A DNA stretch of 64,000 nucleotides from Companilactobacillus pabuli (GTDB taxonomy: Bacteria; Bacillota; Bacilli; Lactobacillales; Lactobacillaceae): NCBI RefSeq assembly GCF_014058425.1, contig NZ_CP049366.1, positions 62,001-126,000 of the forward strand, given 5' to 3'. Positions 3,486 through 9,651 of this stretch are shown here, piece after piece. The translations under genes and the position numbers were made by a program. The notes beneath the pieces were generated by a model that saw only the letters and a program-made list of their open reading frames with translations, searched no databases and was not told the origin of the DNA. How positions within the stretch are numbered: position 1 is the stretch's first letter; each line of letters begins with the position of its first letter.

Positions 3486-3519
3486 ATAGATAATTACTTA
3501 TAGTGTGGAGTGTTAAGAT

Positions 3520-4020
3520 GCCGTCGTCCGTTCGGCCCTGAAAAACGCTGGAGAATGTCGACACAACTTGAAACCAATCCCAAAACCGGGGATTGTTTCC
3601 AAGATTGGTCTTGTCCTAAGCGATAAATCGCTAAGGACAATTTGGCGGCTGAGCGTTTTTCAGAGCCTCGCTCCCGACTAGATAGTAATTTCTATCTTTA
3701 TATAAGTAACTTCAGAAAATTAATAGAAGATATTATTAGAATTGCAGTACATTGCTGCGTTCTTAGTAATATCTTCTTTTTTATTGATGAAAAGTAATAG
3801 AACTGTTATTCAAAAAGTATGTGTCTAATTCTATTCAAATAGAAAATGGACTATAGTCGGGAGCGAAAATCCTGTGGCGGCTCAATAGCCAAATTATTCT
3901 TAGCAACTTGTTGCTTAGAATAAGACCGAGTTTTGAGATTTTGCGCACTTGGTTTATGCAAAAGCTCAAAATCGCGTCGGCTATGTTCCAGCCAGCCACA
4001 GGATTTTTGCGGACGACGGC
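3520..4020. repeat. Composite structured repeat (two elements around a hairpin core)
   Basis: Element A (3520-3681) runs from GCCGTCGTCCG to CTCCCGACTAG with stem arms CTGAAAAACGCT and AGCGTTTTTCAG. Element B (3852-4020) is inverted, running from TAGTCGGGAG to CGGACGACGGC, with a different stem, AATCCTGTGGC paired with GCCACAGGATT. Between them a hairpin (about 3725-3777) with arms AGAAGATATTA and TAATATCTTCT ends in TTTT. The unit therefore has 11-bp terminal inverted repeats. No reading frame inside looks protein-coding. Confidence 0.9.
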
Positions 4021-6440: not shown

Positions 6441-6661
6441 TTCCAATAATATCTTCTATTAATTTCTGAAGTAGTTTGTATAAAGATAGAAATCACTATC
6501 TAGTCGGGAGCGAGGTACTGGAAAATGCTCAGCCGCCAAATTGTCCTTAGCGATTTATCGCTTAGGACAAGACCAAACTTGGAGACAATTCCTGATTTTG
6601 GAATTGGTTTCAAGTTGTGTCGACATTCTCCAGCGTTTTCCAGTGCCGAACGGACGACGGC
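6441..6661. repeat. Half-composite structured repeat
   Basis: The element at 6500-6661 runs TAGTCGGGAG to CGGACGACGGC. Its stem arms are TACTGGAAAATGCT and AGCGTTTTCCAGT, and it carries internal hairpins TTGTCCTTAGCGA/TCGCTTAGGACAA and CTTGGAGAC-type/GGTTTCAAG. Upstream, 6441-6499 holds one arm of the core hairpin (AATATCTTCT) and its usual flank. The opposite arm and the partner element are absent, so this looks like a truncated composite. Confidence 0.85.
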
Positions 6662-6757
6662 AATTGAATGCTGATTAAAACATTTTAATAAACTTATTGA
6701 CATTCTAATTTTTAAATGCTTTACTATTCATTGTAAATTGAAAAGAGGAATTTTATT

Positions 6758-6823
6758 ATGAAAACTAATAATCAACACTCACATTTAAATAATCAATTTG
6801 CCTTTAGCTTTTTCTTTAGATAG
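6758..6823 (+). CDS. Phenylalanine-rich leader peptide
   Basis: A 21-residue reading frame with start ATG 6758, an AAGAGGAA ribosome site and stop TAG at 6821. Its C-terminal part reads FAFSFFFR, with five Phe codons among the last eight. It is followed by mutually exclusive hairpins and a terminator ahead of an ABC transporter operon. This is the layout of translation-coupled attenuation: ribosomes stalling at Phe codons when charged tRNA-Phe is scarce would favour read-through. Leu/Phe-type leader RNAs are known in Lactobacillales; whether this belongs to that class needs a covariance-model search. Confidence 0.75.
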   Translation: MKTNNQHSHLNNQFAFSFFFR

Positions 6824-6828
6824 CGTTT

Positions 6829-6977
6829 GTATCCTTTCGTTGGATACGGGCGCGTACGTGTTCGTATCTATCGAATGGCTAAAGCTTTTAAGCATGTTTA
6901 AGAAGCCAGATAGATACAGGGTTGAATCTATCTGGAGAAAATATTTCGGGCCCGTGTATTGAAACCAGTTAGATTCT
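6829..6977 (+). promoter_or_regulatory. Attenuator leader with competing helices
   Basis: GTATCC/GGATAC form a hairpin at 6829-6847. CCAGATAGAT (6906-6915) pairs perfectly with ATCTATCTGG (6926-6935). Alternatively GTATCTATC (6864-6872) pairs with GATAGATAC (6909-6917). That would free GAATCTATCTGG (6924-6935) to pair with the terminator arm CCAGTTAGATTC (6966-6977), with one mismatch. ATACGGGC (6844-6851) can also pair with GCCCGTGTAT (6950-6959) with bulges. The alternatives describe an antiterminator/terminator switch downstream of the leader peptide. Confidence 0.65.
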
Positions 6978-7003
6978 AATCCGAATCTAGCTGGTTTTTT
7001 TTA
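6963..7003 (+). terminator. Attenuator terminator before the ABC operon
   Basis: AACCAGTTAGATT pairs with GAATCTAGCTGGTT with small imperfections, followed by eight T. It lies 20 bp before the first structural gene, so it must be bypassed for expression. Confidence 0.8.
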
Positions 7004-7023
7004 TACTTCGGGAGGATTAAATA

Positions 7024-7989
7024 ATGAAAAAATCAATTATCAGTTTATTAACAATTGCCATGGTGGCTTTAGTTTTAGTGGGATGTTCAAATAATTCATC
7101 ATCAAGTAAGGAATTGAATGTCGGTATTTTGCAGATTGTGCCGCACGGTTCACTAGATGCTGCTAGAAAAGGTTTCAAACAAGAACTTAATCAAGAAATT
7201 AAAAAACACGATAAATCAATTAAAGTAAATTATAACTATCAAAATGCTCAAGGAGATCAATCCAATTTGAACTCGATGGCACAACAATTAACACAAAAGA
7301 AAAATGATTTGATTTTAGGAATCGCTACACCATCAGCTCAAGCATTGGCTAAGAAGACTAAATCAACACCAATCGTAGTAACAGCAGTCACTAATTTGCA
7401 AAGTGCCGGATTGGTTAAATCGGATAAGAAACCTGATACTAATGTCACAGGAACTAAGGATCTTGGACCAGTTGATAAACAAGTGAAATTGTTGACGACT
7501 TTGACTAAGAATAATAAGCCAATCGGAGTTTTGTACAACTCATCAGAAGAAAATTCCGTGCTTCAGGTCAAGATGGTTAAAAAATACGCTAAGAATCACA
7601 GTTTGAAATTAAATATCGTCAGTGTAACTAGTACCAACGATGTTGCCAGTGCCGTTTCTGGAATGGCTGACAAGGTTTCCGGAATTTATTTACCAACTGA
7701 TAATCTAATGGCTAGTTCAATGAAAACTATCGGTAAAAAAGCTCGTGAAGCAAAACTTCCAGTCGTAACAGGATCAATTGAAATGGCTGAAGATGGTGGA
7801 ACAGCAACTTATGGAATCAATTACGAAGATCTTGGCAAACAAACAGCCAAAATGGCTTACAAGATTTTGATCGACAAAAAGAAGCCGCAAGATATGCCAG
7901 TCGAAACTTCACATACTTTGAGACTTTACGTTAACAAAACTTACGCTAAAGAAATTGGCTTAAACCCTGATCAAATTAAACAACCTTAG
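7024..7989 (+). CDS. TrpX/YtgP-type ABC transporter substrate-binding lipoprotein
   Basis: A 321-residue lipoprotein with a signal peptide ending in the lipobox LVGC (Cys21). The mature part starts LNVGILQIVPHGSLD and belongs to the ABC_sub_bind family (TrpX-like, periplasmic-binding fold type I). Such transporters are assigned to tryptophan or other aromatic amino acids in streptococci and lactobacilli. The Phe-rich leader upstream points to phenylalanine or aromatic uptake. It is followed 11 bp later by the permease. A GGGAGG ribosome site lies 8 bp before the ATG. Confidence 0.88.
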   Translation: MKKSIISLLTIAMVALVLVGCSNNSSSSKELNVGILQIVPHGSLDAARKGFKQELNQEIKKHDKSIKVNYNYQNAQGDQSNLNSMAQQLTQKKNDLILGIATPSAQALAKKTKSTPIVVTAVTNLQSAGLVKSDKKPDTNVTGTKDLGPVDKQVKLLTTLTKNNKPIGVLYNSSEENSVLQVKMVKKYAKNHSLKLNIVSVTSTNDVASAVSGMADKVSGIYLPTDNLMASSMKTIGKKAREAKLPVVTGSIEMAEDGGTATYGINYEDLGKQTAKMAYKILIDKKKPQDMPVETSHTLRLYVNKTYAKEIGLNPDQIKQP

Positions 7990-8000
7990 GAGGTAAACTT

Positions 8001-8948
8001 ATGATTATTTCAAGTCTTGGACAAGGATTACTGTGGGCACCTTTAGCAATCGGTGTTTTCATTACGTTTAGAATTCTAGATATTCCTGATTTAACGACTG
8101 AAGGCAGTTTTCCTTTTGGGGCTGCAGTTGCGGTCAGTTTGATGTTAAAAGGTCAATCAGCTATCACGGCATCGTTAGTAGGATTTTTAGCGGGTTGTTT
8201 GGCAGGACTGATAACAGGGCTATTAGATACTAAGTTACATATTCCTTCACTATTAGCAGGAATTTTGACAATGACAGGTTTGTATTCAATCAACATGCAC
8301 ATTATGGGAAAATCAAATGTTCCTTTGTTGAATGAGAAAGTTTTGACAGAATATTTACCAAGTTGGGATTTGGATATTCAAACGATAGTTTTAGGTTTGA
8401 TTGTTACTGGTCTAGTCGTAGTTTTATTATATTTGATGTTCAAAACTAGATTAGGTTTGTCGTTGATGGCAACTGGTAACAACAAAGAAATGTCGAGTGC
8501 TAATGGGATAAATACAGATGGAATGATTATTTTTGGCTACATGATCTCTAACGGTTTGATTGCCTTATCAGGAGCCTTAATTGCTCAAAGTAATGGTTAC
8601 GCTGATATTGGGATGGGAATTGGTACGATTGTTATCGGCTTAGCTTCAGTCTTAGTTGGAGAGATTTTTTTACGAGGTCACAATATTTTAACTAGATTGA
8701 TAGCAATGGTCGTTGGGGCAATTGTATATCGCTTATTACTGACGGTAGCGATGAGTTTAGGTTTCCCAGCCGATGATTTGAAGATTTTGTCAGCTATTAT
8801 TTTGGTTATCGTCATCTGTGTACCAATCATTCAAAATAAGATTCAAACGAAACGTCAATTGAAAAAATACTTACAACAAATGGAGGCCAAAGACGATGAA
8901 AGTACTACAAGTGCAGCACCTACAAAAAGTCTTCTTTCCCGGGACTGA
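8001..8948 (+). CDS. ABC transporter permease, TrpY-like
   Basis: A 315-residue integral membrane protein with about eight or nine hydrophobic segments. The IPDLTTEGSFPFGAAVAVSL and LAGILTMTGLYSIN signatures are those of the branched-chain/aromatic (BPD_transp_2-like) permease group that accompanies ABC_sub_bind proteins. A TAGGAGG site precedes the ATG. Its last 53 bp overlap the start of the ATPase gene, implying translational coupling. The hydrophilic C-terminal tail of about 40 residues is Lys- and Ser-rich. Confidence 0.86.
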   Translation: MIISSLGQGLLWAPLAIGVFITFRILDIPDLTTEGSFPFGAAVAVSLMLKGQSAITASLVGFLAGCLAGLITGLLDTKLHIPSLLAGILTMTGLYSINMHIMGKSNVPLLNEKVLTEYLPSWDLDIQTIVLGLIVTGLVVVLLYLMFKTRLGLSLMATGNNKEMSSANGINTDGMIIFGYMISNGLIALSGALIAQSNGYADIGMGIGTIVIGLASVLVGEIFLRGHNILTRLIAMVVGAIVYRLLLTVAMSLGFPADDLKILSAIILVIVICVPIIQNKIQTKRQLKKYLQQMEAKDDESTTSAAPTKSLLSRD

Positions 8949-9651
8949 AAATGAGCGCCACGTACTAAAAAATATTAATTTACAAGTAGACGAGGGCGAC
9001 TTCATTGCCGTGATTGGCAATAATGGAGCCGGTAAATCAACGTTGTTAAATACGATTGCCGGAACTTTGTCAGCTGATAGTGGTGAAATTGACTTGGCCA
9101 ATCACAATGTTTCCAAAAAATCCGTTGCCTATAGGTCTCGTTGGATGTCGCGTGTCTTTCAAGATCCCAAAATGGGAACTGCTGGAGATTTAACCGTTTT
9201 GCAAAATTTAGTCTTGGCCCAAAGTCACACAAATACAGTCAATTTACACTGGTACCAAAAAAAGGACGACGTTAAAAAATATCAAGAACTTTTGCAGACT
9301 TTGAATATGGGTTTGGAAAATTTCTTGAATACTCAAGTAAAATACCTTTCTGGTGGTCAAAGACAAGCCTTGTCATTATTGATGGCAACTTTAAGCCAGC
9401 CCAAATTATTATTGTTAGATGAACACACTGCTGCGCTTGATCCTAAGACTAGTCAAGAAGTTATGAAGATCACCGATGAAATGGTGCAGAGAAAACACTT
9501 AACCACGATGATGATCACACATAAGATGTCGGATGCTTTAAAATACGGCAATCGTTTAATTATGGTTCAAGATGGTCAGATTAAATTAGATGTCAAAGGT
9601 GTTGAAAAGCAAAATCTAAATAAAGAGCAGCTGTTAGAGGCCTTTGCCTAA
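8896..9651 (+). CDS. ABC transporter ATP-binding protein, TrpZ-like
   Basis: A 251-residue ATPase with Walker A GNNGAGKST near residues 42-50, signature LSGGQRQALSL, Walker B LLLLDEH and the H-loop MITHKMSDA. It energises the transporter formed with the two upstream genes. The start overlaps the permease gene by 53 bp; ATG 8896 follows GGAGG. The aspartate-glutamate of Walker B is followed by His (DEHTAALDP), common in this subfamily. Confidence 0.9.
   Translation: MKVLQVQHLQKVFFPGTENERHVLKNINLQVDEGDFIAVIGNNGAGKSTLLNTIAGTLSADSGEIDLANHNVSKKSVAYRSRWMSRVFQDPKMGTAGDLTVLQNLVLAQSHTNTVNLHWYQKKDDVKKYQELLQTLNMGLENFLNTQVKYLSGGQRQALSLLMATLSQPKLLLLDEHTAALDPKTSQEVMKITDEMVQRKHLTTMMITHKMSDALKYGNRLIMVQDGQIKLDVKGVEKQNLNKEQLLEAFA

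Follow-up and report, generated by a model that had tools for sequence, protein, structure and literature searches.

In Companilactobacillus pabuli, which has a genome of 2.5 Mb, a three-gene ABC importer (7024-9651) is preceded by a leader ORF, overlapping hairpins and a strong terminator, which raises the question of what this upstream region senses and how it could control the importer. The window, i.e. the whole stretch of 64,000 nucleotides, was analyzed, and 36 Companilactobacillus genomes were compared. Comparison shows a conserved frame, alternative helices that are conserved and covary, and an association with aromatic amino-acid genes. Judging from its sequence, the element is very likely a ribosome-mediated transcription attenuator that senses the charging of Phe-tRNA through a seven-segment relay. 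We infer the order of events, the idle state, phenylalanine starvation as the signal, and phenylalanine (perhaps also tyrosine) as the cargo. The leader with its competing hairpins would very probably allow lactic acid bacteria to induce an amino-acid importer under phenylalanine shortage.

Leader frame and organization of the importer locus

All features described here are on the forward strand. The leader ORF (6758-6823) encodes the peptide MKTNNQHSHLNNQFAFSFFFR in 21 codons, with the ATG at 6758-6760, a TAG stop codon at 6821-6823 and the C-terminal end FAFSFFFR; codons 14, 16, 18, 19 and 20 are Phe codons. This is the Phe-rich frame that an earlier note on this DNA had described. A Shine-Dalgarno-like AGAGGA (6744-6749) is located 8 bases 5' of the ATG, and a purine-rich stretch precedes the leader start in all 27 genus loci. 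A putative promoter, TTGACA and TTTACT separated by 17 bases (6697-6725), was recognized by eye; the consensus scan did not list it because its rule calls for A as the second base of the downstream hexamer. Downstream of the leader are the genes encoding a substrate-binding lipoprotein (ABC_sub_bind, PF04392; 7024-7989) predicted to be of the Phe/Tyr type and not TrpX, an ABC permease (BPD_transp_2; 8001-8948) and an ABC ATPase (8896-9651). The region has the parts expected of an attenuator: a short ORF with a ribosome-binding site, which is putatively translated, a conserved run of Phe codons, and a mutually exclusive antiterminator and intrinsic terminator.

In the same part of the window, a 200-base sequence at 3519-3718 is found again in the opposite orientation at 6463-6662, the two being 92% complementary; this inverted pair looks like a repeat family.

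Conservation of the leader peptide

An ortholog of the binding protein (at least 68% identity) was found in 27 of the 36 genus genomes, and all 27 orthologous operons have the leader peptide. A frame lost in relatives while the terminator is kept had been proposed in the earlier note as evidence against attenuation, and the comparison found the frame conserved at 27 of 27 genus loci. One species (L010) shows about 300 extra bases of short repeats separating the terminator from the binding-protein gene. Among 397 genomes of the family, 58 gave a match to the leader DNA used as query (E <= 1e-25). Alignment of 62 distinct leaders (L120 and L121, exact duplicates of L122, and L159, which has no leader, were left out) shows an N-terminus variable in length and sequence and a constant end, LNxxFxFSFFFR-stop, with Ile at the first x in one row (L148 or L150). 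At the five Phe positions, three of 310 codons are changed, in each case from one of TTT and TTC to the other; the codon separating the first two Phe codons encodes Ala in 60 leaders, Asn in one and Gly in one. Codon conservation could be partly attributable to RNA pairing.

A second BLAST search, covering 295 genomes of the order, gave matches in 22 and showed leaders in other Lactobacillales families, most of them ending in [FY][FY]FS[FY]FR-stop. Among the 18 divergent leaders from BLAST loci (19 rows before the mislocated L156 was removed, with the L162 row being the second leader there), codons -6, -5, -3 and -2 encode Phe or Tyr without exception (18 of 18). Codon -7 does so in 16 leaders and encodes Ala and Gly in the remaining two. 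The last residue is Arg in all 62 aligned and 18 divergent leaders counted. In families other than Lactobacillaceae, the peptide usually combines Phe with Tyr, so that the wider family probably senses both amino acids.

A degenerate pattern for the aromatic leader end matched 167 of 395 genomes with one mismatch at most; as it presupposes aromatic codons, it was excluded as evidence for such codons. Inspection of 39 loci from this pattern found four without such a leader (L202, L220, L221 and L222) and two that look like chance (L219 and L243). The exact pattern TGGCAAAGCCGATAA matched five of 256 genomes, one of the five (L280) not being a leader. In addition, L162 (genome G137) contains two leaders, FSFSFFR and FYFSYFR, in one stretch, and three related matches to the binding protein lie within about 5 kb in this genome.

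Alternative helices of the leader RNA

The fold of 6740-7005 has a z of -5.6, with none of 200 shuffles as good. The intrinsic terminator T pairs 6961-6976 with 6983-6998 (16 bp), is followed by a T-run, and is the sole terminator-like site listed in 6640-7040 (shuffle mean 0.2). It is preceded by five further helices. Hairpin Hm1 (6823-6834 with 6842-6853), whose 5' arm begins at the final base of the stop codon, is paired in 99.7% of cells of the 62 leaders and has no pair changed on both sides. Hairpin H0 (6842-6853 with 6858-6869; 99.9% paired, one pair changed on both sides) is mutually exclusive with Hm1 and with helix B (6864-6872 with 6909-6917, 9 bp; 99.6% paired), in which the pair 6871:6910 appears as UA, AU and UG. 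Helix B is in turn exclusive with both H0 and hairpin C (6906-6915 with 6926-6935, 10 bp; 99.5% paired), which hides the antiterminator strand and whose pair 6910:6931 appears as AU, UA, GU and UG. The antiterminator D (6924-6935 with 6965-6976; 92.5% paired, three pairs changed on both sides) has a U-U mismatch at 6931:6969, and its weak pairs are 6924:6976 and 6931:6969. The segments shared are 6842-6853 between Hm1 and H0, 6864-6869 between H0 and B, 6909-6915 between B and C, 6926-6935 between C and D, and 6965-6976 between D and T, so that along the chain Hm1-H0-B-C-D-T every helix precludes its successor. Helices B and C coincide exactly with those given in the earlier note; the terminator arm that it had placed at 6966-6977 is 6965-6976, and the exclusive hairpins Hm1 and H0, as well as the helix of the Phe codons described below, were absent from it.

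Helices were also analyzed as two sets in the 62 leaders, using shuffles that ignore the relatedness of the leaders. The termination set (H0, C and T) is 99.0% paired; its covariation score of 0.151 was equalled in 0 of 500 shuffles, and its seven pairs with changes on both sides were equalled in 3 of the 500. The antitermination set (Hm1, B and D) is 97.1% paired, with a score of 0.126 that was likewise equalled in 0 of 500 shuffles; its four pairs changed on both sides were matched by 66 of 500 shuffles and are thus not beyond chance. Controls with slid partners were paired in 45.1% of cells at most. In distant families, e.g. L156 and L171, the arms of C, D and T differ in sequence and have the same layout, as judged by eye.

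Two further pairings involve the region of the leader ORF. The Phe codons themselves form a helix (6802-6808 with 6878-6884) that is a candidate for the ribosome-free state; it is paired in 99% of cells, shows little covariation because its sequence is almost invariant, and has a counterpart in the consensus of the Rfam family RF02863. The minimum-energy structure contains a 14-bp pairing of 6810-6823 with 6928-6941, paired in 92.2% of cells, with the pair 6820:6931 lost in nine of the 62 leaders; this pairing may reflect a common CTATC sequence.

Between C and the terminator, most rows of the 62-leader alignment contain a GGGCCC palindrome (6948-6953). The palindrome centred on it is kept with its flanks in most leaders, and in places it varies as a palindrome, e.g. 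ATAGGCCTAT in L149.

Proposed attenuation mechanism and folding models

When Phe-tRNA is charged and plentiful, the leading ribosome would translate FAFSFFF, reach the stop codon and sit on the 5' arm of Hm1; H0 would then form and prevent B, C would form and hide the antiterminator strand, and the terminator would end transcription ahead of the importer genes. When phenylalanine is scarce, the ribosome would stall on the Phe codons, and Hm1 would form and block H0; 6864-6872 would then pair with 6909-6917 (B), C would be blocked, D would form and the importer would be made. With no ribosome, the stretch of Phe codons could itself pair downstream, which should favour termination. The ribosome footprint should reach over the 5' arm of Hm1 from the stop codon and leave this arm free during a stall on the first Phe codons.

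In folds of the window leader, D has a probability of 0.91-0.99 with the ribosome edge at 6804-6822, 0.94-0.98 at edges 6824-6828 despite H0 being formed, and 0.82-0.99 at 6838-6848. With the edge at 6830-6836, H0 reaches 0.96-1.0, C only 0.42-0.67 and D still 0.32-0.56, so the stop-codon state is not clean. The probability of D is 0.11 when the leader is free from 6757. Without ribosome, the helix of the Phe codons has a probability of only 0.20, and the 14-bp pairing, a possible ribosome-free competitor, one of 0.64.

Upstream pairing of the terminator arm was compared between the stalled and the stop state in all leaders with a detected terminator, which left out one of 62 aligned and two of 36 divergent leaders. 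Among 61 leaders, the stalled state gave the higher value in 45 and the lower one in none, with 16 ties (means of 0.80 stalled and 0.65 at the stop); among the divergent leaders (n = 34), it gave the higher value in 22 and the lower one in six, with six ties. The ribosome-free state is not clearly off, with a mean of 0.67 in the 61 leaders. A kinetic proxy, namely an antiterminator strand that is open ahead of the synthesis of the terminator arm, failed to separate the two states both in the 62 leaders (stalled above stop in 48; means of 0.29 and 0.22) and in the divergent ones, which include the mislocated L156 (11 of 36; means of 0.23 and 0.23). Given the mixed fold results and the undiscriminating proxy, the anatomy of the relay is well supported, its switching in the folding models only in part.

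Genes downstream of the leaders

Leaders of the Phe/Tyr type are also located before genes encoding shikimate dehydrogenase AroE (L175, L182 and L218), DAHP synthase (L205), prephenate dehydratase (L206 and L209) and a family-3 binding protein (L203). L203, L205, L206, L209 and L218 were found by the degenerate aromatic pattern, and L218 was reached by the RF02863 model too. Furthermore, four MFS transporter genes (L157, L158, L160 and L161) are preceded by a Tyr/Phe leader, YYFGLVYFR or YYFGFAYFR. Of the MFS proteins, L157 and L161 were scanned, and both carry a fused chorismate mutase domain. These leaders suggest that an order known for its T-boxes may run much of its aromatic amino-acid supply through leader peptides.

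Identity of the importer

The importer at 7024-9651 is probably not the tryptophan importer, and a paralog probably is. A second importer is encoded in the genus; its binding protein shares about 35% identity, and 40 of the 41 upstream regions of this paralog show a Trp leader with one Trp near the end and a WQSR-stop ending; at the 41st place (L031, in a 1.5-Mb genome), no Trp peptide was found within 600 bases upstream. The leader of the C. pabuli TrpX operon (L032, C1:2094178-2094355; the others of the genus are L033-L071) has the WQSR-stop peptide ahead of a terminator. In 28 sampled genomes of the order, the best paralog match has a clear Trp leader, by reading, in 21. Of the rest, the one TrpX locus scanned, L309, has a T-box and no clear Trp leader: relatives have one mechanism in place of the other.

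A tree of 59 binding proteins separates 32 proteins with a Phe/Tyr leader from 27 Trp paralogs by one branch (100/100); the Trp rows were picked as paralog matches, so that their label is not independent, and eight of 67 proteins (five Trp and three Phe/Tyr) that failed the motif filter are absent from the tree and included in the ligand-residue count given below. With the NCBIfam model of TrpX, NF041285 (cut-off of 390 bits), the window protein scored 321.9 bits; four Phe/Tyr-leader proteins including it range between 306 and 325 bits, and five Trp paralogs, three of them scored as the matched stretch only, between 437 and 476 bits. According to the available text of PMC6816091, Gln-284 of SP1069 hydrogen-bonds the indole and admits Trp, while Tyr at this position blocks Trp, and a second ligand position is Ala with Phe bound and Glu with Tyr bound. 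At the ligand-selecting position, all 32 Trp paralogs have Gln. The window protein has Tyr-267 there, and the 35 proteins with a Phe/Tyr leader have Tyr in 34 cases and Phe in one. The second position is Ser in the window protein and in 28 of the 35, and so does not decide between Phe and Tyr as cargo.

TrpX was rejected as the identity of the window binding protein, given its score below the NF041285 cut-off and Tyr-267 where TrpX has Gln. The suggestion of the earlier note that the importer responds to phenylalanine, and not to tryptophan, is supported by the codon content, the Trp leader of the paralog, the NCBIfam scores, the ligand residue and the aromatic-pathway genes that carry such leaders. 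The analysis predicts tryptophan as the cargo of the paralog and phenylalanine or tyrosine as that of the importer at 7024-9651.

Relation to Rfam families and published elements

The Rfam search for leu/phe leader families suggested in the earlier note was run, and no family matched the window at gathering score; proteobacterial amino-acid leader families were not among the four Rfam matches with E <= 5 in 6700-7030. A T-box (RF00230) at the leader was rejected: the window has no such match, and the 23 T-box matches in the rest of the genome are all away from the two ABC loci. Below threshold, the window matches RF04312 (trpB motif) at 26.5 bits (cut-off of 59) and RF02863 (Enterococcus sRNA 2410) at 19.6 bits (cut-off of 61). 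Relatives reach RF02863 (L175 with 90 bits and L218 with 65.8 bits), and the Trp sister switch reaches RF04312 (L312 and L298). A covariance search of 158 genomes of the order (E <= 0.001) found RF04312 in 93 (35 over the cut-off) and RF02863 in 88 (39 over the cut-off); in the C. pabuli genome this search gave an RF04312 match just after the Trp leader, with 38 bits and thus below the cut-off, and no match to RF02863. Members of RF02863 share the peptide and the layout, which makes homology with the window leader likely, at a score below that of family membership.

For each family 30 loci were examined, these being the best-scoring matches and some of them from close relatives. A Phe/Tyr leader was defined by a start codon, an SD-like site and at least four Phe/Tyr in the last eight residues; the RF02863 model itself does not presuppose the peptide. 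Such a leader is found at 29 of the 30 RF02863 loci, in 0 of 150 shifted controls and in 0 of 30 on the other strand. The remaining locus, L359, reads FYFSYFRRCL-stop and falls outside the definition because the usual TAG stop is changed to CGG, which extends the leader three codons. At RF04312 loci, a Trp leader is found in 30 of 30, with its stop codon 12-24 bases before the motif (9 of 150 shifted controls and 0 of 30 on the other strand). RF02863 begins inside the Phe/Tyr codons and spans the same helices as the window leader, but its Rfam type is that of an sRNA gene; the string 2410 does not occur in the available text of PMC3166299. RF04312 corresponds to the second half of the Trp sister switch and is in print as a strong riboswitch candidate, for which the authors left a classic attenuator possible (PMC11109978).

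Two S. agalactiae elements, gbs2033 (270 nt) and gbs1262 (195 nt), were described in 2015 as new riboswitches before paralogous ABC operons, with a short terminated RNA by RNA-seq, and an element of the gbs2033 type lies before aroFBC-tyrA of E. faecium too (PMC4448216); the term leader peptide has 0 occurrences in the main text of that paper as available. They resemble the two switches described here in being upstream of two paralogous ABC operons and differ in being called riboswitches; from the descriptions rather than from sequence comparison, they are probably the same two switches. A switch of this kind seems to account for RNAs filed as an unexplained sRNA, as a strong riboswitch candidate and, probably, as two streptococcal riboswitches. 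As far as sequence comparison indicates, the element belongs to a known class, the leader-peptide attenuators, within a widespread family so far catalogued piecemeal under other names.

The enterobacterial trp, his, pheA and pheST leaders are ribosome-mediated attenuators. The window leader resembles them in its leader peptide rich in the regulated residue, its chain of exclusive hairpins and its intrinsic terminator; it differs in the lack of any Rfam match to the window at gathering score, in its seven-segment relay (Hm1, H0, B, C, D and T) and in controlling an importer. In Firmicutes, the ilv leader Rli60 of Listeria (PMC5864092) and His leader peptides (PMC2965389, PMC9413887) represent, in the texts available, the same kind of attenuation with other amino acids and other RNAs, and a Leu-rich leader peptide of Staphylococcus is among the matches listed. 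A proposed uORF with Phe codons, uORFC-13-1, precedes a terminator and a shikimate gene, aroF, in Acholeplasma (PMC8632094); it comprises 24 Acholeplasma sequences with at least one Phe codon and is likened to the window leader by description only. The homologous Trp importer of Streptococcus suis, trpXYZ, uses T-box transcription attenuation and not a leader peptide (PMC9382623, as available). Leader-peptide attenuation had been called unusual in Gram-positives in the earlier note, which is only partly right: the accessible literature describes His and Ile/Leu/Val leaders in Firmicutes, and the element described here is widespread in the order. Among the matches listed from open PMC papers, no title or abstract opening mentions a Phe/Tyr leader peptide in Lactobacillales.

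Alternative explanations

Following the 2015 proposal for the S. agalactiae elements, the window element could be a metabolite riboswitch for an aromatic amino acid with an incidental ORF. The strong RNA conservation in 6802-6884 is consistent with this, as are the published proposals (PMC4448216 and, for the trpB motif, PMC11109978); however, an incidental ORF agrees poorly with the start codon, SD-like site and Phe/Tyr-rich frame found at nearly all RF02863 loci examined and in none of their controls, with a frame that is kept while its N-terminal length and sequence vary, and with a residue type that tracks gene function, Trp for TrpX and Phe/Tyr for aromatic genes. We consider a riboswitch highly improbable.

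A second alternative is a switch based on nascent-peptide arrest, like TnaC. A peptide ending in Arg could stall the ribosome on binding of free Phe/Tyr, and not through empty tRNA, and the Arg that precedes the stop codon throughout the aligned and divergent leaders, and in many Trp leaders, points in this direction. Nevertheless, several aromatic codons with exchange between Phe and Tyr fit codon reading, the AGATAG stretch takes part in RNA pairing of the RF02863 consensus, and some leaders (L359 and L367) continue past the Arg, so arrest as the mechanism is very unlikely here. A broader version, in which the terminal Arg marks both Phe/Tyr and many Trp leaders as arrest peptides and the sister switches read free aromatic amino acids in addition to tRNA charging, is somewhat less remote, albeit still doubtful. 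Finally, the strong terminator could simply separate neighbouring units, with the ORF present by chance, which is scarcely credible for a region whose alternative helices covary and whose leaders recur across the order.
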